The translations under genes and the position numbers were made by a program. This document shows, piece after piece, positions 4,471 through 20,326 of a DNA stretch of 20,326 bases (its first letter is position 1; the number at the start of each line of letters is the position of its first letter). The stretch is from IMG/VR virus record IMGVR_UViG_3300047358_000341, positions 1 to 20,326 of that record; one strand, written 5' to 3'. Source of the stretch: a virus. The notes under the pieces are model-generated. The model did not search any database. It had not been told where the DNA came from and saw only the letters and a list, made by a program, of their open reading frames with translations.

Positions 4471-4727
4471 CTGACCTAAGAACTACACGCAAACAACTCT
4501 ATGTTATTGATGGTGCGCCAGCTATCAGCATAGATAAGGATGGCTATGTTCGATGTGGACTGAGCGAGAAAATGGAAGACAATGACAAGTTGGTTCTTGC
4601 TATCTGTCTCTCGCTCAAGAACAAAGCTTGGAAAAAGAAAATGCTTGCCGCTGTGGACAAGCACTTCGTAGGTAAGACCACCCCAACAAGTAGGATGGTC
4701 ACTGTTTATAATCTGATTGGTTCTTAA
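4467..4727 (+). CDS. Hypothetical protein (86 aa)
   Basis: Begins at an ATGA overlap with the preceding stop. It is the last gene of the plus-strand accessory block. The product is basic and soluble, with a conserved-looking centre (ISIDKDGYVRCGLSEKM, around residues 21-37). It ends convergently with the minus-strand gene at 4724, overlapping by 4 bases. No family recognised. Confidence 0.6.
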   Translation: MTDLRTTRKQLYVIDGAPAISIDKDGYVRCGLSEKMEDNDKLVLAICLSLKNKAWKKKMLAAVDKHFVGKTTPTSRMVTVYNLIGS

Positions 4728-4731
4728 TCAG
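4713..4731. terminator. Weak hairpin between convergent gene ends
   Basis: CTGATT (4713-4718) pairs with AATCAG (4726-4731) across a 7-base loop, exactly where the two convergent genes end. On the plus strand only a loose T-rich run (CTCTTTT, about 4739-4745) follows, so its terminator role is uncertain. Confidence 0.3.
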
Positions 4732-4954
4732 TAGATGTCTCTTTTAGTACATCATTAAAAGCCTCGCCTAATAACTGAGCATCATCCTGTGTCCAGTTGT
4801 TAGGCAAAATGTTTTTCACAACTTGCTCTAGTTCACACCTTACTACATCGACTAGTTCATCATATGGTATGTCTGAAAGGTTAGGTTCTTCTATCCTTTC
4901 GTCGTTTGATTTAGCCGCCATGAACGATATTATATTGCCTGTATTTGTTGTCAC
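4724..4954 (-). CDS. Hypothetical acidic protein (76 aa)
   Basis: The frame opens with GTG at 4954, supported by GAAAGG 8 bases upstream; an ATG lies 11 codons later (4921) without a ribosome site. The product is acidic and helical (ELVDVVRCELEQVVKNILP, about residues 33-51) and could be a small protein-binding factor. It lies just past the attP site on the integrase strand, so it may be co-expressed with the integrase or be a lysogeny-associated gene. No family recognised. Confidence 0.5.
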   Translation of the reverse strand: MTTNTGNIISFMAAKSNDERIEEPNLSDIPYDELVDVVRCELEQVVKNILPNNWTQDDAQLLGEAFNDVLKETSTD

Positions 4955-4993: not shown

Positions 4994-5042
4994 CGTGTTA
5001 AAAATTTAAAGGTGACACCCAAATGATTATCACCAGTAATAA

Positions 5043-5127
5043 TCGAAAGTTATTTCCAGGGAATAAGTAGTCCTTTAGGAGGGGGCTACTCTATCCAGTT
5101 GAGCTACGGGGCCGTAGCAACTTTCGA
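5043..5127 (-). other. attP: attP: tRNA-Arg(CCU) 5' half flanked by inverted repeats
   Basis: Read on the minus strand, 5113 down to 5075 is the 5' half of a tRNA. It has acceptor strand GGCCCCG, TA, D-arm GCTC...GAGT, anticodon-stem strand GCCCC and loop CTCCTAA with anticodon CCT (Arg, AGG codons). After the loop the match fails: the next bases do not rebuild the stem and there is no T-arm. The block is bracketed by a perfect 9-bp inverted repeat, TCGAAAGTT (5043-5051) and AACTTTCGA (5119-5127), which may be integrase-binding arms. It lies 24 bases past the integrase stop, the usual place for attP. The exchange point is expected at the anticodon loop. Confidence 0.75.
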
Positions 5128-5150
5128 CGTTGTGTGACTGCCACATGCTA

Positions 5151-6203
5151 TCAGATAGACGTGACTGCCTTAATATGATCCTCGAACTCTGGATGCACGT
5201 ATAGCATCGTTGTCTTTGGATCGGTGTGTCCCATCAGAGTTGAGATAACTGCGAAGGGTGTGTTGTTCTCGCCAAGGCGAGAGCCGAATGTATGCCTCAT
5301 GGTATAAGGCGGTTTGTCTTTAATGCCAAGACTTTTACATACGTCAGTCCAATCATTATAGAAGTACGAGTAACCAGCCTCAGTGTTATAAGGCTTATGA
5401 TAGTTGTCTACTTTGTAAGTGAACAACATGTCACCCTCTTGATCCATTGGTGCAGCTTGGTTGCCATGTGCAGCGGCATACGCCCGAGGATTTAAAGGGA
5501 TGGTTCTTGATCTTGGTTTGCGATTACGTCCTTTGATTGACGTAAGCACACACTTCTTCCTTGGAAAATCTAACTTAGATTTACGAAGGTTGTATGCTTC
5601 CGCTGGACGTGCGCCAGTGTTAAGGATGAATGACGCTAACCGTTTATTGCACGGCTTGAGCTTACGAAAGATTGCCTCTTCTTCTTTCTGTGTGAGCGTC
5701 ACAATTTCCTTCTCTTCTTCTGGTGGTTTCCGCAATGTAATTCTCTCACTGCGAAAGCCTTGGTCCTTCGCATAGTTCAACACCGATTGGAGTTGTGTTA
5801 TTACTCTTCGGGTGTGTGAAGCACTATGACCTAGCGACGTGTGGTTTTCAAAAACATACTGAGTTGCGTCGGCTGCTACGAAGTCGGACACATACATGTC
5901 CCCGAAACAATCATTTAATTTTTCTAGTATCTGTCTAGCTGTTCGACCTGATGCCGTTGAAGGATCAGCCATGAACGATTTGATTACAACATGGAAGGTA
6001 GGATTAGAGGAAGTTGACTTAGGTTTGATAGATACTTTCCCAAGCAAGATCCCCTGTTCAAGCTGAAGCATTTTTAAATGTGCCTCTTGCGGATCAGATG
6101 TCTCAAGAGATTTGCGGATGCGTTGCTTGCGTCCGTTTACCTTGAGTGATCCAACAGCCTGATAGTAGCTAGAGTTTTCACGAGTGTGTAATTTTAATCC
6201 CAT
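5151..6203 (-). CDS. int: Tyrosine recombinase (phage integrase)
   Basis: A 350-residue site-specific recombinase that would insert the phage at a host tRNA gene. The N-terminal part (about 1-60, basic, KVNGRKQRIRKSL) is a likely arm-binding domain, 70-155 the SAM-like core-binding domain, and 165-345 the catalytic domain. Expected catalytic residues are R199 (NTGARPAE), K224 (beta-hairpin SIKGRNRK), R303 (MRHTFGSRL), H326 (LMGH) and nucleophile Y335 (TMLYVH). The usual His of the HxxR box is Tyr here (Y300). AGGGGGGATC precedes the ATG. The LuxR-type gene ends 8 bases upstream, so the two form one operon. The attP site follows the stop. Confidence 0.93.
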   Translation of the reverse strand: MGLKLHTRENSSYYQAVGSLKVNGRKQRIRKSLETSDPQEAHLKMLQLEQGILLGKVSIKPKSTSSNPTFHVVIKSFMADPSTASGRTARQILEKLNDCFGDMYVSDFVAADATQYVFENHTSLGHSASHTRRVITQLQSVLNYAKDQGFRSERITLRKPPEEEKEIVTLTQKEEEAIFRKLKPCNKRLASFILNTGARPAEAYNLRKSKLDFPRKKCVLTSIKGRNRKPRSRTIPLNPRAYAAAHGNQAAPMDQEGDMLFTYKVDNYHKPYNTEAGYSYFYNDWTDVCKSLGIKDKPPYTMRHTFGSRLGENNTPFAVISTLMGHTDPKTTMLYVHPEFEDHIKAVTSI

Positions 6204-6211
6204 GATCCCCC

Positions 6212-6706
6212 CTATCTTTTAGTTGGTGCATACAATGGTGCAAGAGGATCATTCATTCCTATGCTGGCGTTGTCGCCCCAAGTCATAGGTAGTCCCTCAG
6301 ATGCAGCTTCATACTCACCCGATGTTGCTTTGTTACATATGTCTCTGAATGCTACAGCAATAGAGCCACGAGTTTTTAGACCCATCTTTTTACCTGTTGC
6401 AGATACGTGAAGCTTGATAGTGTTCTCACTTACACCCATCATTTCTCCGATGTCTGCATTCTTCCAACCCTTGACTATGAGTTGTGCGACACAGTGTTGT
6501 TTAGTTGTGAGCCGACGTAGCAAAGCTGCCTCTGCTATATTTAATTGACTGCCCGAAGGGTTCTCTAATGGCGCGTCCGATTTAGTCATTAGTAGTTGGA
6601 CTACCATATCGAGCTTGGCTTCTAGCCTTGCTATGTCTAGTCTAATATTCTCATTCATAGCTTGGTACTCCATTATTTGTGGAGCATACGCATGGTTCTG
6701 ATACAT
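6212..6706 (-). CDS. LuxR/GerE-type DNA-binding regulator upstream of integrase
   Basis: Residues 66-121 form a GerE-type helix-turn-helix: LTTKQHCVAQLI, KGWKNADIGEMMGVSENTIKLHVSATGKKMGL. The N-terminal 45 residues contain a short coiled coil (NIRLDIARLEAKLDMVVQLL) for dimer formation. There is no autoinducer-binding or receiver domain, so no ligand or kinase input is visible. GGGAGGG lies about 8 bases before the ATG. The stop is 8 bases from the integrase start, which makes this a likely regulator of integration or lysogeny. It could act on its own promoter through the GGCAAT repeat at 6741-6755. Family call is firm; target is inference. Confidence 0.85.
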   Translation of the reverse strand: MYQNHAYAPQIMEYQAMNENIRLDIARLEAKLDMVVQLLMTKSDAPLENPSGSQLNIAEAALLRRLTTKQHCVAQLIVKGWKNADIGEMMGVSENTIKLHVSATGKKMGLKTRGSIAVAFRDICNKATSGEYEAASEGLPMTWGDNASIGMNDPLAPLYAPTKR

Positions 6707-7763: not shown

Positions 7764-8438
7764 TTAGTGCCAGCCCTCGGCCCATGCTTTAATTCGTTCC
7801 CTCATTATATAAAGTCCGAACAATACTGTGATGCCAGCAAACGCTAGTATGATGTACTGGCTTGTCTCATTCATTCCCGTGAGTGATGTCACCGCTGTAC
7901 CAGCGGATGCAGCTATGGTTGCAGCACTAGCCTTGACTGTCTTCGATTGTCTTGGCTTGGTACGCTCTGGCTTCTTAGCAGTAGCCTCTGAGAGTTTCAT
8001 ACCTGACAGCCACTTCTGTACTCTAAATCCAGGACAAGCCTTTGTAGAAATACGATTGTGACCAATCACATTCTCGTTCTTGATACTGTACTGATCTTGT
8101 AGCTTGCGAATTAAATCGTAAGCCGCTGCTAATTGTAGTGGTGTGAAGTGATCTGTTGCTAGATCATCAGCGTCACTACCAAAGCCACCGAACAATGCGA
8201 TGCCAATACTATCAGAGTTATGTCCCTTGGCATGTGCGCCTGACTTCTCTACTGGCCTACCTTGGGCAATCTCTCCACCTCTACCAATGAGATAATGGTA
8301 TCCGATTGACGACCAATTACGAGGTGGTGTTGTATGCCACTTCTCAACTTCTTTGACTTGTTCGTTAAGTGTTTTGTTTTCCCACCAATCAGGACGGGTT
8401 GCCGTGCAGTGGACAATGATCTGGTTAATCTTTCTCAT
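7764..8438 (-). CDS. Endolysin: N-acetylmuramoyl-L-alanine amidase with C-terminal membrane anchor
   Basis: Residues 1-145 are an Amidase_2 / T7-lysozyme-type domain. Zinc ligands are H10 (VHCTATRP), H127 (VIGHNRIS) and C135 (KACPGF), with catalytic-type Y47 (GYHYLIGR) and K133. It cleaves the amide bond between muramic acid and the stem peptide. After a basic, Ala-rich linker (about 150-190) comes a hydrophobic helix (about 194-212, YIILAFAGITVLFGLYIM) and a positive, Trp-containing tail. A C-terminal anchor is unusual for a T7-type amidase and may hold the enzyme to the inner membrane or supply holin function. It overlaps the nuclease-like gene upstream by four bases. Confidence 0.9.
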   Translation of the reverse strand: MRKINQIIVHCTATRPDWWENKTLNEQVKEVEKWHTTPPRNWSSIGYHYLIGRGGEIAQGRPVEKSGAHAKGHNSDSIGIALFGGFGSDADDLATDHFTPLQLAAAYDLIRKLQDQYSIKNENVIGHNRISTKACPGFRVQKWLSGMKLSEATAKKPERTKPRQSKTVKASAATIAASAGTAVTSLTGMNETSQYIILAFAGITVLFGLYIMRERIKAWAEGWH

Positions 8439-8827
8439 AACATAAAAGCCTTTCTAATAGTTTGCGTTTGCTCTTCTTCAGTAAAACGATCAGGCTTTAT
8501 TTTAAGAGTTCTTCCCACCGTGTCGTCCCTTCTAAACGCAACGCAAAGTTTTTTGTCCAAGGCTACAAGGATGTAGATGCCATCATAGATGTTTCGATTG
8601 GGTCCGAACTGAAAAGAATATCGGGCTGGCCTAGCCTTGACGCCATGCACCATTGCTTTTGAACAAGCCTTAACTTGTACCCGAACCATGCCACGGTTAG
8701 GAGTATCGCACCACAAGTCGTCGTGTGGTAAGTCAACGTGGGTAGTGCGTATTCCATGACGTTCTAATATAAAGGCTGCGTAAAATTCACCCGCACGACC
8801 AATAAAGATTTGGTCTGTTCGTGTCAT
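8435..8827 (-). CDS. PD-(D/E)XK-like endonuclease or resolvase (130 aa)
   Basis: The layout matches small PD-(D/E)XK nucleases: GRAGEFYAAFILERHG (E14, motif I), LPHDDLWCD (D36/D37, motif II) and VRVQVKAC (Q51, K53, motif III). Q in place of E in the ExK motif occurs in some members of this superfamily. The likely substrate is branched or damaged DNA, but a restriction-like role is possible. It sits in the lysis operon with overlaps on both sides. The superfamily call is fair; activity is not proven by the motifs alone. Confidence 0.65.
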   Translation of the reverse strand: MTRTDQIFIGRAGEFYAAFILERHGIRTTHVDLPHDDLWCDTPNRGMVRVQVKACSKAMVHGVKARPARYSFQFGPNRNIYDGIYILVALDKKLCVAFRRDDTVGRTLKIKPDRFTEEEQTQTIRKAFML

Positions 8828-9099
8828 TACTTTCTTAGTAGTGTTTCTAAATGACTGATGGTTGCTTGTGCTGTTGCAAGTTCGCTCCGAAGCTTACCCA
8901 TTTCTTTAAGTAAGTCTTCCTTGTCCTTGGTGTAGATGTCGAGCTTGTTAGCAAGTCGATCTACTTGATCCTTCAAAGTATTCTGATACTCAGTTGCAGC
9001 TTCCCTCTTTGTCTTCTCCTTCATGGTGACAAATGACCAGAACCCAGCCGATCCAATCAAGGCTATGATAACTGTTATTAAACTTTCTATACCCATCAT
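8827..9099 (-). CDS. Membrane-anchored coiled-coil protein (90 aa)
   Basis: An N-terminal membrane segment (about residues 5-25, LITVIIALIGSAGFWSFV) is followed by a long charged coiled coil (about 30-88) with regular Leu and Ile spacing. The position two genes upstream of the endolysin makes holin, spanin-like or other lysis partner roles possible. A single anchor with a long cytoplasmic or periplasmic coil is not a typical holin. It overlaps its neighbours by ATGA (upstream) and TAATG (downstream). Confidence 0.6.
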   Translation of the reverse strand: MMGIESLITVIIALIGSAGFWSFVTMKEKTKREAATEYQNTLKDQVDRLANKLDIYTKDKEDLLKEMGKLRSELATAQATISHLETLLRK

Positions 9100-9344
9100 G
9101 TCCCCATTTCTTTTCCATTGTGCGGAGCTTCAAGCGTAGCACTCACACCTTTGTTCATCGGCACACATTCAATACTCATTCTGTAGTATTCATTGTTCTC
9201 TATCTTTGACCAGTTAGGTTGTGCCGCGATGAACATACATTGCTCCAATGTCATTGGTGTATTGTATATGTACTGATTGCCGATGTACTCCCACTCCACA
9301 CCTGTGTTTCCCCAAATAGAAAAGACCAATACAAAGAATGACAT
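9096..9344 (-). CDS. Small exported protein (82 aa)
   Basis: A short hydrophobic N-terminus (MSFFVLVFSIWG) may be a signal sequence. Two Cys (C37 and C60), about 23 residues apart, could form a disulphide outside the cytoplasm. Starts at a TAATG overlap with the upstream gene. No family recognised; a role in the envelope during lysis or superinfection control would be speculation. Confidence 0.55.
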   Translation of the reverse strand: MSFFVLVFSIWGNTGVEWEYIGNQYIYNTPMTLEQCMFIAAQPNWSKIENNEYYRMSIECVPMNKGVSATLEAPHNGKEMGT

Positions 9345-9790
9345 TAGATTTTCCCCATGAATTTTGCGATGAAATATATTCCAGTGAGGACGACAGCCAC
9401 AGCTAACAAAACACCAGCAACCATGCTGACTGCTTCAATCCTCTCTTGTCTTTCTTTCTCTAACTGTTTCTGTCTAGCCTTACGCATTTTCCTTGCTTCA
9501 TTTTGCCAATCCAGCCACCTCTGCCAAGTTCCAGGTTTTGCATACAAGCGACAAAAGGATTCTAATTCTCTGCGCTTTTCTTTAATATCCTCAAGCTGTT
9601 GGAAGCATTCCCAATCACCCTCTTCACCACCAGTAATAGCTGTCAAAGGGGAAGTTCGTTTCTTCCTTACCTGTTCTTTAAGTTGGTCTTCAGCCGTAAG
9701 AAATTTTCCGACATGGCTAACCATATCTTTAACTTCCCTAGAATTTTCTAGGGCTTTTTTTATAATTGCAAATGAGGCATTCGCCGCCAT
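9344..9790 (-). CDS. Hypothetical protein with C-terminal membrane helix (148 aa)
   Basis: A helical protein with an N-terminal part FAIIKKALENSREVKDMVSHVGKFL, a Trp-rich middle (TWQRWLDWQNEARK, about residues 88-101), a basic coiled stretch and a membrane helix near the end (about 123-145, MVAGVLLAVAVVLTGIYFI). I have seen the same layout in phage proteins of unknown role, but this is from memory. The ATG at 9790 has only a weak ribosome site, and the frame is open upstream to a TAG near 9875. A non-ATG start extending it by up to about 28 codons is therefore possible. It opens the run of overlapping genes that leads to the lysis cassette. Confidence 0.65.
   Translation of the reverse strand: MAANASFAIIKKALENSREVKDMVSHVGKFLTAEDQLKEQVRKKRTSPLTAITGGEEGDWECFQQLEDIKEKRRELESFCRLYAKPGTWQRWLDWQNEARKMRKARQKQLEKERQERIEAVSMVAGVLLAVAVVLTGIYFIAKFMGKI
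9736..9761 (+). terminator. Terminator-like hairpin antisense to the 9344-9790 gene
   Basis: On the plus strand CCCTAGA (9736-9742), a four-base loop and TCTAGGG (9747-9753) are followed by C and seven Ts (9755-9761), a perfect intrinsic terminator shape. It lies inside a minus-strand coding region (KKALENSREV), so it would only stop plus-strand readthrough. It may be a real insulator or a chance result of the codons. Confidence 0.45.
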
Positions 9791-16061: not shown

Positions 16062-16164
16062 GAGCATGAAGCGCAATGGTTTTGCTTCTAGTGATGATCA
16101 GAACACGACCATCACGATATAGCACGTACTTACCTCGACGCTCTACTAGCTTATCCCCTTGCAC
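16009..16164 (-). CDS. Small basic ORF after the giant virion gene (51 aa)
   Basis: A GTG at 16164, inside the last codons of the giant gene, opens 51 codons to a TAA at 16009-16011. A second GTG at 16125 has a GAGGTAAG ribosome site six bases upstream. The sequence KYVLYRDGRVLIITRSKTIAL (about residues 12-32) and the basic tail look like a short beta-rich protein. The last third is encoded across the plus-strand terminators, which constrains it. It may be a real small late gene, or a chance frame. Confidence 0.42.
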   Translation of the reverse strand: MQGDKLVERRGKYVLYRDGRVLIITRSKTIALHAQKIPRKKRGKYGEKMIP

Positions 16165-19100
16165 CCTTCTCACCAGCTAATAAGTCAACACCTTTTTCTC
16201 GGACACCAGACATTTGACCAGCAACAGGCAAGCGACTTAGGATTGCCCTAACCGCTGCACGTTCTTTGCCGTTAGTTCCTTCGCCACTAATCACGTCACC
16301 AGTAGCAGACATACCACCACCAAGAACAGTGAGAGCATCGAAGAACAATCCAGATGTCGGACCAGCAAATGTTTGAGCAACCCGAACCTGACCATAGGCT
16401 CCGTTGTCGGCTTGATTAACTGTGTCGTACATAAGTTCACCAAGGATACCCAAACCACCCATTGTCATAAAGCCATCCCAATACCAGCCCAAAGCTTTGT
16501 CTGCATTGTCATTAAGCATTCCTTCAAGTGGCGTAACAGTCTTGGATAACTTACGATCTCTAAATTCAGCTTCACGGTTGTCCTCACCGCCTCGCATCTG
16601 AACAACGTCTTTCACATTGGCGGCTGTAAAACCCATCGCTGGGCCAGCGGTCATATATAGTAGTGCTGGTGCAAAGTTAGGATCATCTTTGCGTAAAGCT
16701 TCAGAGAAAGAATACCTACCAAGACGTAGCATCTTGAGAGGGAAAGACTTGAGTTGGAAAATTAACTGACCCGCTGGTGTTGTTGCCCATTGTGGTAGAT
16801 CATTTTTGTTTGGCGTAAAGATACTTTCGTTTGCAAACTTGATCATGCCTGTTGATACTTTTTCATACATAGGATGTTGAGCTTGTGTACCACCAGAACG
16901 CATGATCATGTCGATGTGGGGCGCACCCTTCTGATACAACTCTTGTAGTCCAAATTCATCCAATGCTCTTTTAGCTAGTCGGCCTTGGCGAGTGTTTGGA
17001 TTTTCAATAGCAATCCGCGCACTAGCTTTGAAATGTTCAAAGGCTGTAGAACCAGCTATCTCACGCATCATGTCGGTCCAGGGAGTTAGCCCCGTTGCTG
17101 TGAAAAAGCCAGTAGTAAAACGGTTAGCGTCAATCCCATAAGAGTTAGACATTCGTTGATGCACTGTATTCTCTACTGCAACGCCAACGTTTCTAATCAT
17201 GTCTCGGTAAGCAGAACCAGAAACAGGATCGGAAGCAAAGTTCTTCAATGCTGAAGTCCATGCTTTGAAGTTACCTGATCTGATTAGTGGTAGAACTAAA
17301 TCACCAAGCGATGTCAGAGTTGTGAAAGAAAGTAGAGTTACACCGTTGACCATTCGCAATGCAGAGGAAGCCTTACGCCATGCTTCAGAACCGTTTGGTT
17401 TATTCATCAACAAATCAATGTAGTTCTCCGCATGTTTAGCATTCGCTTCACTTGGAAACTTAGTAAATCCACGAGTGTCTTCCAAAGCATTCGCAATAGC
17501 CTCGGCACGTTTACGAAAGTTCTTCCGCATCTGATCGCTAAATTCATCGCTGTCTGGTGTCGGGGCCATTAGATCCATGATGTCTCTAACCATGTCGTCC
17601 TTGTTTGCACCACTGGCAGCTTTGCGTACAAGTTCATCAGTAAAGAAGTCTGCATTTTTCTTTGTAGCAAACGGAGCTTTAAACAATGCAGAGTTGCCCG
17701 TTTGTTTAAATACGGCTGCACCAGTTAGATCTGGTTCGTTACCAGACGAGAGAACATGGTAGTCTGACTTGAGTATCTTGTCACTTGATAGAAGCCTAGC
17801 AACAGCATCATGCCGATTACGAATGATTGCCATATAATCGTTTAAGGCGTGACCTTGTGGACCGAACCTTTCAGATATATCTAAACGTCTTTCAACATTT
17901 TCTGTGTATTTCGACATCACAACCATTAAGTCGTTTTCTAAAAAACCACCAAGAAACTTCTTCTGATTGGTCGGGTCTAAGAACTCAGGGTATTGGTCAA
18001 GTCTTAGCATACGCTGTTTCAGAAAGTCTTCATTACCACCACCATCGTTGAAGACTTTACTTCGTGGTAGATTTACACCCCCGTCTTCGTCAACAATTTG
18101 TTTGGTAATTTTTTTTGCTTTCTCTAAAGCTTCTCTTTTCTTGAGCATTGCGTTACCGCCATGACGGTTCACGTCTTCTGCTATAAAGAAATCAGCAAGC
18201 ATACTTTCAAACTCAGGACGACGTGCATTGATTAAATCCACTCGGTAAACTTGTGGAAAATAATTATCAACAATCACACCAACGTCTTCACCAGCTTGTG
18301 CAAGCCTAGATCTTACTTCATCTAGGTATCCACGGAGCATAGTAAAAACTTTCTTCTCACTCGGTTTGAGTTTGTTGACAGCGGTTTCATTTCGCAACGC
18401 AGTTACAATACGTTGATGTGATTTTGGCTGTGCCTCGGCACGAGTTGGGTTAAAACCAAATAAGTTACTTTCTGAATTTCCAAACCTACGAGATAGGGCT
18501 TCCGCTGTGGTGTCGTACATTTGTTTTAGACCAGCATCGAACCAACGCCCCATAGGATTTTTACTATCTGGTAAGGCACTTAACGCTCTTGTCATTGGTT
18601 GAAGGATACGAGCCATCTTGCCGTGAATACGTTCATAGTGACCGCCACTACCATCGGCGGGTTCAGCAAAGTCGGCAACATAGTTCATGCCTGATCGACG
18701 TATGATCCCTGATTGAGTGTCAGTTGTTAAAGCTGTGCGTACCGCTTCAACCTCACCAGTTTTTAAACTCTTACCACGACGCATATTCATAGTCGCTTTT
18801 AGGAAGTTTGGATCAGCACCGCCTTGTTCTAAAACATGGGCGGCTCTCTTAACTGCATCCTCACCACCATCAGTTGCAACACGAGCCTCAGACATGATAA
18901 AGCTATTAAGTCCTGATCCTATTTCTTTCTCGCCCAACAATGGTTTAGCGTGTAACAACTCTGGACTATCGACACTGCGAACATTCTTTGGACTGACAAG
19001 AACAGTCTCACCATCTACTGTTATAGTAGAATAATTATTGCGCCTCATAACTCTCCGTAGTTCTTCGGCACTACCAGCGATATTAGACAGGGTTTCAAAC

Positions 19101-20326
19101 ACTTGACGACCAGTAAACAAGCCAACATTGTCTTCTATTGCTCGGTCTACCTGTCGAATAATCTCAGGTGAGTTTGCTGTTCTTTTGATAGCATCAGTAA
19201 TACCCTTAACAACATCGGATTTAAATGTCATTTGATGCCCAAATACGGCTGGCTTACTGTCCTTCAAAAAGACTGCATTCGCTTTAGTCATATCAGTAGC
19301 ACCAAACCGTTCGATCTCTTTACCTACGACATCATCAAACAAGTAATGGTCCCCTAAATCACTAGAAGAACCATCAGCCCTCATACCATTGATGCCATTA
19401 CGAACCGCTTCAGATTGGTCAACTAATTCAGATACTAATTCCTTACGGGCTGTTGGTGCGCTTTCAATAATCTTATCACGCATATTTGCCATAGTATTAG
19501 TCGGACGGTCTGTGATCTGTGGCATGTTGCCAAACATAGGGTCTACATTTGCCCCTGTTACAAAGAAAACCTTTACATCGTCTGAACCAGTAAAGTCTTT
19601 TACTGCATCAACACTTGCTTGTGTCAGACGACCTATGGTTTCACTTGCATATTCGGAAGCAAATTCCGCTGGCACTTCGTTTCCATAAACAGCGGCGGGA
19701 GAACCGCGAGACAATACACTGTCTGCTTTCATATCGCCATACATAGTCAGAGGTAAAAACCTTTGACGTGCTTGGGGATTTACAATTAGCCCATTAACCG
19801 AATACGCAATTGCTTCGCGCATAGCATCACGAGCGTCATTGATTGCATCCTCTACCTCAAACCCATCGACCTCTGGCAAGGTGTCTTTGATTTGTTTCAT
19901 AAGTACACGGTTAGCTTGCATGTCTACATCCTCAACTACAAGCTGTTCAAGAATGCTATCAGCATCATATCCCATTCGTGCCGCTGTTTTTTCTAGTAGA
20001 TTACGTGTACTGTCTTCCAAAATATGAGAAGGGTATAACCGCTTCGATAACTCTCGAACCGTTTGTGTTATATCATCAGTCTCTAGGTTTGCAGCTAATC
20101 GTCTAACTACGTTTCGGAACTCTTTGAATGCGTCTGTCTTAGTGCTAGGCGACATATTAAAACCTAGACCTACCATTCTCATAGCAAGCTTACGGGCAGC
20201 ATTCATTTTCTGTGGTGTTCTGTGCTTAATCTCTCCAAGAAAATCAGACAGAATAAATGGTGTGCTTTGTCCTATACCAACATCAACCTCACCGCCCCTG
20301 TCAAATGCAGCCTCAACTTTAGTTGC
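16151..20326 (-). CDS. Giant virion-associated / polyvalent-type protein (partial, N-terminus outside window)
   Basis: The frame is open from the right edge (20326) to a TAA at 16151-16153, with 1391 codons visible. The ATG at 20206 is not the start, because 40 in-frame codons lie before it. The protein is long, mostly helical and charged, with motifs such as VDNYFPQVYRVDLI (about visible 650-665) and, near the end, PAGQLIFQLKSFPLKMLRL. Several hydrophobic Gly-rich stretches follow (MTAGPAMGFTAANV, MTMGGLGILGELM, GLFFDALTVLGGGMSATGDV). This shape fits the giant ejection or internal-core proteins of podovirus-like phages, where hydrophobic C-terminal parts may cross the host envelope. A polyvalent protein with LPD-type domains is an alternative. 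No enzymatic motif was found by eye. Confidence 0.75.
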   Translation of the reverse strand, partial: ATKVEAAFDRGGEVDVGIGQSTPFILSDFLGEIKHRTPQKMNAARKLAMRMVGLGFNMSPSTKTDAFKEFRNVVRRLAANLETDDITQTVRELSKRLYPSHILEDSTRNLLEKTAARMGYDADSILEQLVVEDVDMQANRVLMKQIKDTLPEVDGFEVEDAINDARDAMREAIAYSVNGLIVNPQARQRFLPLTMYGDMKADSVLSRGSPAAVYGNEVPAEFASEYASETIGRLTQASVDAVKDFTGSDDVKVFFVTGANVDPMFGNMPQITDRPTNTMANMRDKIIESAPTARKELVSELVDQSEAVRNGINGMRADGSSSDLGDHYLFDDVVGKEIERFGATDMTKANAVFLKDSKPAVFGHQMTFKSDVVKGITDAIKRTANSPEIIRQVDRAIEDNVGLFTGRQVFETLSNIAGSAEELRRVMRRNNYSTITVDGETVLVSPKNVRSVDSPELLHAKPLLGEKEIGSGLNSFIMSEARVATDGGEDAVKRAAHVLEQGGADPNFLKATMNMRRGKSLKTGEVEAVRTALTTDTQSGIIRRSGMNYVADFAEPADGSGGHYERIHGKMARILQPMTRALSALPDSKNPMGRWFDAGLKQMYDTTAEALSRRFGNSESNLFGFNPTRAEAQPKSHQRIVTALRNETAVNKLKPSEKKVFTMLRGYLDEVRSRLAQAGEDVGVIVDNYFPQVYRVDLINARRPEFESMLADFFIAEDVNRHGGNAMLKKREALEKAKKITKQIVDEDGGVNLPRSKVFNDGGGNEDFLKQRMLRLDQYPEFLDPTNQKKFLGGFLENDLMVVMSKYTENVERRLDISERFGPQGHALNDYMAIIRNRHDAVARLLSSDKILKSDYHVLSSGNEPDLTGAAVFKQTGNSALFKAPFATKKNADFFTDELVRKAASGANKDDMVRDIMDLMAPTPDSDEFSDQMRKNFRKRAEAIANALEDTRGFTKFPSEANAKHAENYIDLLMNKPNGSEAWRKASSALRMVNGVTLLSFTTLTSLGDLVLPLIRSGNFKAWTSALKNFASDPVSGSAYRDMIRNVGVAVENTVHQRMSNSYGIDANRFTTGFFTATGLTPWTDMMREIAGSTAFEHFKASARIAIENPNTRQGRLAKRALDEFGLQELYQKGAPHIDMIMRSGGTQAQHPMYEKVSTGMIKFANESIFTPNKNDLPQWATTPAGQLIFQLKSFPLKMLRLGRYSFSEALRKDDPNFAPALLYMTAGPAMGFTAANVKDVVQMRGGEDNREAEFRDRKLSKTVTPLEGMLNDNADKALGWYWDGFMTMGGLGILGELMYDTVNQADNGAYGQVRVAQTFAGPTSGLFFDALTVLGGGMSATGDVISGEGTNGKERAAVRAILSRLPVAGQMSGVREKGVDLLAGEKGARG

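Follow-up and report, generated by a model that had tools for sequence, protein, structure and literature searches.

Among elements that integrate into tRNA genes, restoration of the 5' half of the target is rarer than restoration of the 3' half, both in bacteria and in archaea (PMC8371274), as the first-pass annotation of the DNA analysed here had stated, and in bacteria it is seldom met (PMC8371274, citing Williams 2002). The archaeal element pTN3 carries a 41-bp 5' half, and the tRNA gene rebuilt with it is parted from its original promoter (PMC5495485, PMC8371274); for the archaeal pTN3-like integrases, the rebuilt tRNA is expressed from the integrase promoter (PMC8371274). In Roseobacter phage CRP-810, integration at the anticodon region of a tRNA-Thr was verified by PCR (PMC11288001). 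The locus described here belongs to a marine phage and lies in a 20,326-nucleotide viral stretch (IMG/VR record IMGVR_UViG_3300047358_000341), whose whole length is referred to as the window. It is very likely the attP of a temperate relative of the CRP-810 type, with an integrase that targets an alphaproteobacterial tRNA-Arg(CCU) and restores its 5' half.

The nearest named phage is indeed CRP-810, with which this 20.3-kb fragment shares a Prim-Pol (31% identical over 97%), an integrase (approximately 30%) and the order of luxR and int. The fragment further encodes an amidase, a Sak4-like (AAA) ATPase and a nuclease that is Cas4/YqaJ-like. Of the core genes by which the CRP-810 family is recognised (Prim-Pol, AAA ATPase, PD-(D/E)XK nuclease, portal, terminase and capsid), the last three were not identified in it; a 1351-aa protein encoded at 16151-20206 weakly matches both a virion structural family and an unknown phage family. 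The integrase gene (5151-6203, minus strand) encodes a 350-aa tyrosine integrase (PF00589, 3.5e-19; PHROG integrase, 3.3e-42), whose residues aligning with CRP-810 include R199, K224, R303, H326 and Y335. The HxxR catalytic motif of this integrase group has Tyr (PYTMRHT; residue 300) in place of its first His, whereas CRP-810 has His. The adjacent gene for a LuxR/GerE-type HTH protein (6212-6706, minus strand; PF00196, 2.1e-10) probably forms one operon with int, and the gene order is the same in CRP-810.

On the same strand as int, positions 5113-5075 (minus) hold the 39-nt sequence GGCCCCGTAGCTCAACTGGATAGAGTAGCCCCCTCCTAA, which covers a tRNA from its nucleotide 1 through the last base of the anticodon loop, CTCCTAA. 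It is identical at 37 of its 39 positions to the tRNA-Arg(CCT) gene of the Tritonibacter mobilis megaplasmid and likewise at 37/39 to that of the Ruegeria sp. TM1040 megaplasmid, both called as tRNA-Arg(CCT) by ARAGORN, and the match to the host tRNA starts at nucleotide 1 and stops where the anticodon loop ends. The annotation's reading of this stretch as a tRNA-Arg(CCU) 5' half, from the acceptor strand to CTCCTAA, is thereby borne out, as is the choice of tRNA-Arg(CCU) as the target. When the host half was compared with the whole window allowing up to three mismatches, the single match was the one at 5113-5075, and 100 dinucleotide-preserving shuffles gave none. ARAGORN called no tRNA gene in the window, including when the downstream bases were considered for a full cloverleaf, and the T-arm motif, already reported as missing, was found neither in the window nor in the 21 kb of L023, the closest longer relative. 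Due to these two results, no full cloverleaf or 3' half can be said to be present, and neither a full tRNA-Arg nor a tRNA 3' half was found in the window or in the 21 kb of L023. An Rfam scan of a 400-bp region returned nothing, and a lone tRNA half may stay below the threshold of the tRNA model. The claim that the similarity ceases after the loop held in part: the host match ends there, but a portion of the 3' anticodon stem is kept past the loop, as AGGAC in the window and as GGGTC or AGGGC in relatives.

The half is the common core of the proposed attP, within and beside which putative integrase sites can be placed. The anticodon loop (5075-5081, minus), at which the host match ends, would be the strand-exchange overlap, by analogy with the 7-bp overlap of tyrosine recombinases in anticodon loops (PMC8371274). 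GCCCC (5082-5086, minus), the 5' strand of the anticodon stem, would be the left core-type integrase site, and the imperfect stem partner AGGAC (5070-5074, minus), which is GGGTC or AGGGC in relatives, would be the right one. Around this core there is a perfect 9-bp inverted repeat, as had been annotated, with its left arm TCGAAAGTT at 5119-5127 and its right arm AACTTTCGA at 5043-5051 (both read on the minus strand), separated by 67 nt; in the sister contig L003 the inverted repeat is 21 nt long at 81%. The repeat has its midpoint at 5085 and the anticodon loop at 5078, and since the repeat is not centred on the loop, its arms are more likely a pair of integrase arm sites than core sites, a plausible though putative assignment. 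A 37-nt spacer (5114-5150, minus) separates the stop codon of int from nucleotide 1 of the tRNA. On the other side of the half, RNA folding predicts a hairpin followed by a T-rich run (5000-5034, minus), weakly terminator-like and not called by a consensus terminator scan, and past it lies a small phage ORF of 76 aa (4724-4954, minus) that is conserved in the contigs and has no Pfam match.

The half also occurs in four more IMG/VR contigs (L002-L005), at the corresponding position and again followed by this small ORF, and it is identical in them at 39/39 or 38/39 positions, the L005 copy having a single change from C to T at position 5. In all contigs int lies immediately upstream of the half and the conserved phage ORF immediately downstream. 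In the comparison with L003, the int genes are 77.8% identical at the nucleotide level, while the 25-nt left flank, which includes the left repeat arm (25/25), and the 39-nt half are together identical at 64/64 positions, and the right repeat arm at 9/9, past which identity drops to 63%. By our own arithmetic, taking the bases as independent, the probability of 64 consecutive identical bases at 77.8% per base is about 1e-7. The window, L002-L005, L010, L023 and L025, in which the phage genome is incomplete, contain no tRNA genes; the longest of the sister contigs has 28 kb.

The annotation's central claim, that the element is an attP carrying a 5' half, is supported by the adjoining int on the same strand and by the junctions that it would form. 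Joined in silico, the int side of the phage, its 5' half and the 3' half of Tritonibacter mobilis, used as a surrogate host, give a tRNA-Arg(cct) by ARAGORN, whereas neither the native attP alone nor the host 5' half followed by the right side of the phage gives any tRNA. Because only the int-side junction gives tRNA-Arg(cct), integration would rebuild the tRNA gene on that side, without the host promoter. In the proposed mechanism, modelled on the integrase family, the integrase would pair two anticodon stem-loops, one in attP and one in the host gene, and exchange the strands within the 7-bp loop. As attP holds tRNA nucleotides 1-38 and not the 3' part, the int-side junction would consist of the phage 5' half and the host 3' half, that is, a complete tRNA gene, which would become the last element behind luxR-int and be co-oriented with int. 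By the same in silico geometry, the host promoter and the host 5' half would move to the other end of the prophage, facing the small phage ORF.

The rebuilt gene would thus, by the geometry of the junction, be separated from its own promoter and placed behind phage DNA, as in pTN3. This agrees with the earlier proposal that the host tRNA would depend on a phage-supplied promoter, but no consensus promoter was found between int and the half, and a dedicated promoter upstream of the half was therefore set aside as a candidate. In two related contigs with 5' halves (L065 and L071), the tRNA follows the int stop after only 11-12 nt, too short a gap to accommodate a promoter outside int. With no consensus promoter between int and the half in the window, read-through from the luxR-int operon would be the likeliest source of the rebuilt tRNA, over a dedicated tRNA promoter; most simply, the tRNA would come from transcription that continues past int or from a promoter within the int gene. 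The tRNA would then be released from the read-through transcript by RNase P processing, or else be made from a non-consensus phage promoter.

The layout of CRP-810, the closest named relative, raises the question of whether the core of the window would belong to a tRNA-dependent lysogeny, in which a short core suffices and a complete tRNA encoded elsewhere by the phage offsets the broken host tRNA. CRP-810 has a whole tRNA-Thr adjoining int and a separate core of 11-13 bp (PMC11288001), which matches the definition of that behaviour (PMC10865867). Nevertheless, no complete tRNA was found in the window, in the 21 kb of the sister contig L023 or in the other contigs, and compensation by a full tRNA, as in CRP-810, was rejected on that account; moreover, a 39-nt half starting exactly at nucleotide 1 would be needless for it, and a complete tRNA already results from the chimera with the host 3' half. 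We consider this explanation improbable. The int-adjacent half could also be a tRNA-mimic regulatory RNA in the int 3' UTR instead of a recombination core, given that it lies inside the presumed int transcript and is followed by a terminator-like hairpin, but at this position next to int related phages have different tRNAs and different halves, which can also lie on the other strand. A common UTR element would not account for this, and the chance that this reading is correct appears very small.

Lone tRNA fragments can be remnants, and in that sense the half might be what an earlier integration or a transduction left behind, or a phage tRNA gene in decay, with no function now. A leftover would hardly stay the same, or differ by a single base, among five contigs with int genes diverged to 78%, nor would it be expected to end at the anticodon loop, to adjoin int and to sit between conserved repeats, which makes this origin highly doubtful. 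Least credible of all is that the contig is the end of an integrated prophage and the half the displaced 5' part of the host gene: such an end would also show a lone tRNA half with no partner, but int lies upstream and a conserved phage ORF downstream in all contigs, and as both flanks are of phage origin, the half borders on neither host DNA nor a host tRNA promoter.

The alphaproteobacterial host is probably a roseobacter, as suggested by two sequence relationships only, the roseobacter-like tRNA, which at 37/39 falls short of full identity, and the kinship with CRP-810. Searches of GTDB genome contigs for close relatives of the integrase and for the exact core revealed no prophage integrated with this integrase: there were no close integrase relatives, and the exact 34-nt core had no match, the query having been too strict in that it kept two bases differing from Ruegeria/Tritonibacter. 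An integrase located 33 kb from the megaplasmid tRNA-Arg of Tritonibacter mobilis was rejected as a prophage, there being no second tRNA piece beside it, and other plasmid-borne relatives of the integrase have no complete tRNA adjoining them. Both the TM1040 and the Tritonibacter mobilis tRNA-Arg(CCU) genes are on a megaplasmid (L012, L013 601-677), and the TM1040 copy adjoins an IS3-family transposase.

A survey of CRP-810 integrase relatives in viral contigs, together with their neighbouring sequences, yielded three designs beside int. There are 3' halves of tRNA-Ser(GCU) (L030-L033, L040, L057) and of tRNA-Thr(GGU), the latter on the int strand (L035-L039, L041, L042) or on the other strand (L043, L046, L048, L049), and the named phages D3, AP3 and Aaphi23, with sequences judged by eye, have 3' halves on the opposite strand. 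The second design, a whole tRNA-Thr with the separate core CCTTACCAAGG, is found in CRP-810, L029 and L034. The third one comprises the 5' halves: those of the window group, those of tRNA-Ser(GCU) in L059 and L061/L062/L066, and those of tRNA-Ser(UGA) in L065 and L071. Opposite halves can be complementary, as the 5' half of L061 and the 3' half of L030 join into a complete tRNA-Ser(gct), and likewise those of L059 and L040, which means that related integrases share the tRNA and the crossover while carrying opposite halves. A tree of 32 integrases requires the 5'-half label to change four times, at least three of these changes being forced by well-supported branches; owing to several long branches, the exact placement of the changes is unsure.

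A DNA scan of viral contigs for the tRNA-Ser(GCU) 5' half found nine contigs, six of them with no 3' half and with the half beside an integrase in each: L114 (the L059 contig), L115/L119/L121 (the L061 group), and the new L117 and L120. In L117, whose integrase is 30.5% identical to that of L059, the half (8378-8417) lies 164 nt after int (8582-9619, minus) and is co-oriented with it; in L120, the half (5071-5110) and int are convergent. Co-orientation of int with the 5' half is therefore usual and not universal. A consensus scan called no promoter upstream of the L120 half; the half may nonetheless have a promoter of its own in that sequence, or the contig could be a prophage end. As for the whole-tRNA design, tRNA-Thr(GGT) lies beside int at L006:6026-6133 (CRP-810), L029:1517-1591 and L034:4011-4085, each with its separate CCTTACCAAGG core, a layout that fits tRNA-dependent lysogeny and would take that behaviour past the actinobacteriophages; the available part of the CRP-810 paper does not name it (PMC11288001). 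In L046 (2231-3445) and L048 (2917-4134), the int frame crosses attP, so that the C-terminus of the integrase is encoded antisense to the tRNA 3' half and would be altered by integration. In further contigs (L044, L047, L050-L056), from a related integrase clade, neither a tRNA piece nor a known core can be recognised near int.

Integration by a 5' half cuts the tRNA gene from its promoter, so the host would rely on transcription of the prophage to be supplied with that tRNA. The occurrence of 5' halves in several related phage integrases, beside relatives with 3' halves or whole tRNAs, makes certain questions testable: how, and how often, do phages switch the half that they restore? What drives the displaced tRNA? 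In a speculative and rather unlikely scenario, the restored half would flip repeatedly in this integrase family, the int transcript would be the sole source of an otherwise single-copy host tRNA in 5'-half lysogens, transcription of int and luxR would be locked on by the need for the tRNA, as would follow if that transcript were its sole source, and prophage genes at the opposite end would be driven by the captured promoter of the host tRNA.

Among the closest known systems is pTN3/TKV4 of Thermococcales (IntpTN3), in which attP is also a tRNA 5' half (41 bp shared, including the anticodon) and the tRNA rebuilt on integration is likewise parted from its own promoter, that of pTN3 being under the integrase promoter. 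Unlike the window phage, those elements are archaeal and their attP lies inside the integrase gene, which is split upon integration; in the window, attP lies 37 nt past the int stop and int stays whole, and hence its integrase is not suicidal as that of pTN3. CRP-810 (OR671924; PMC11288001) shares the LuxR-int order, a Prim-Pol at 31%, an integrase at about 30%, an anticodon-loop core and an attP right after int, but it has a whole tRNA-Thr on the opposite strand and a separate short core, with no 5' half. The tRNA-dependent lysogeny of actinobacteriophages (PMC10865867) has in common a tyrosine integrase, a tRNA attB and a crossover in the anticodon loop; in it, however, the host tRNA is not rebuilt and the phage encodes a complete tRNA, whereas for the window phage the tRNA is rebuilt in silico and no complete tRNA was seen. 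Ordinary 3'-half attP sites (D3, AP3, Aaphi23, L030/L035) are alike in their related integrases, in the position of attP beside int and in carrying one tRNA half, but it is the 3' half that they restore, and the host promoter still drives the tRNA. Attachment sites with a 5' half are thus documented but rare, in the archaeal pTN3 and in rare bacterial cases, and the window phage is a new case.
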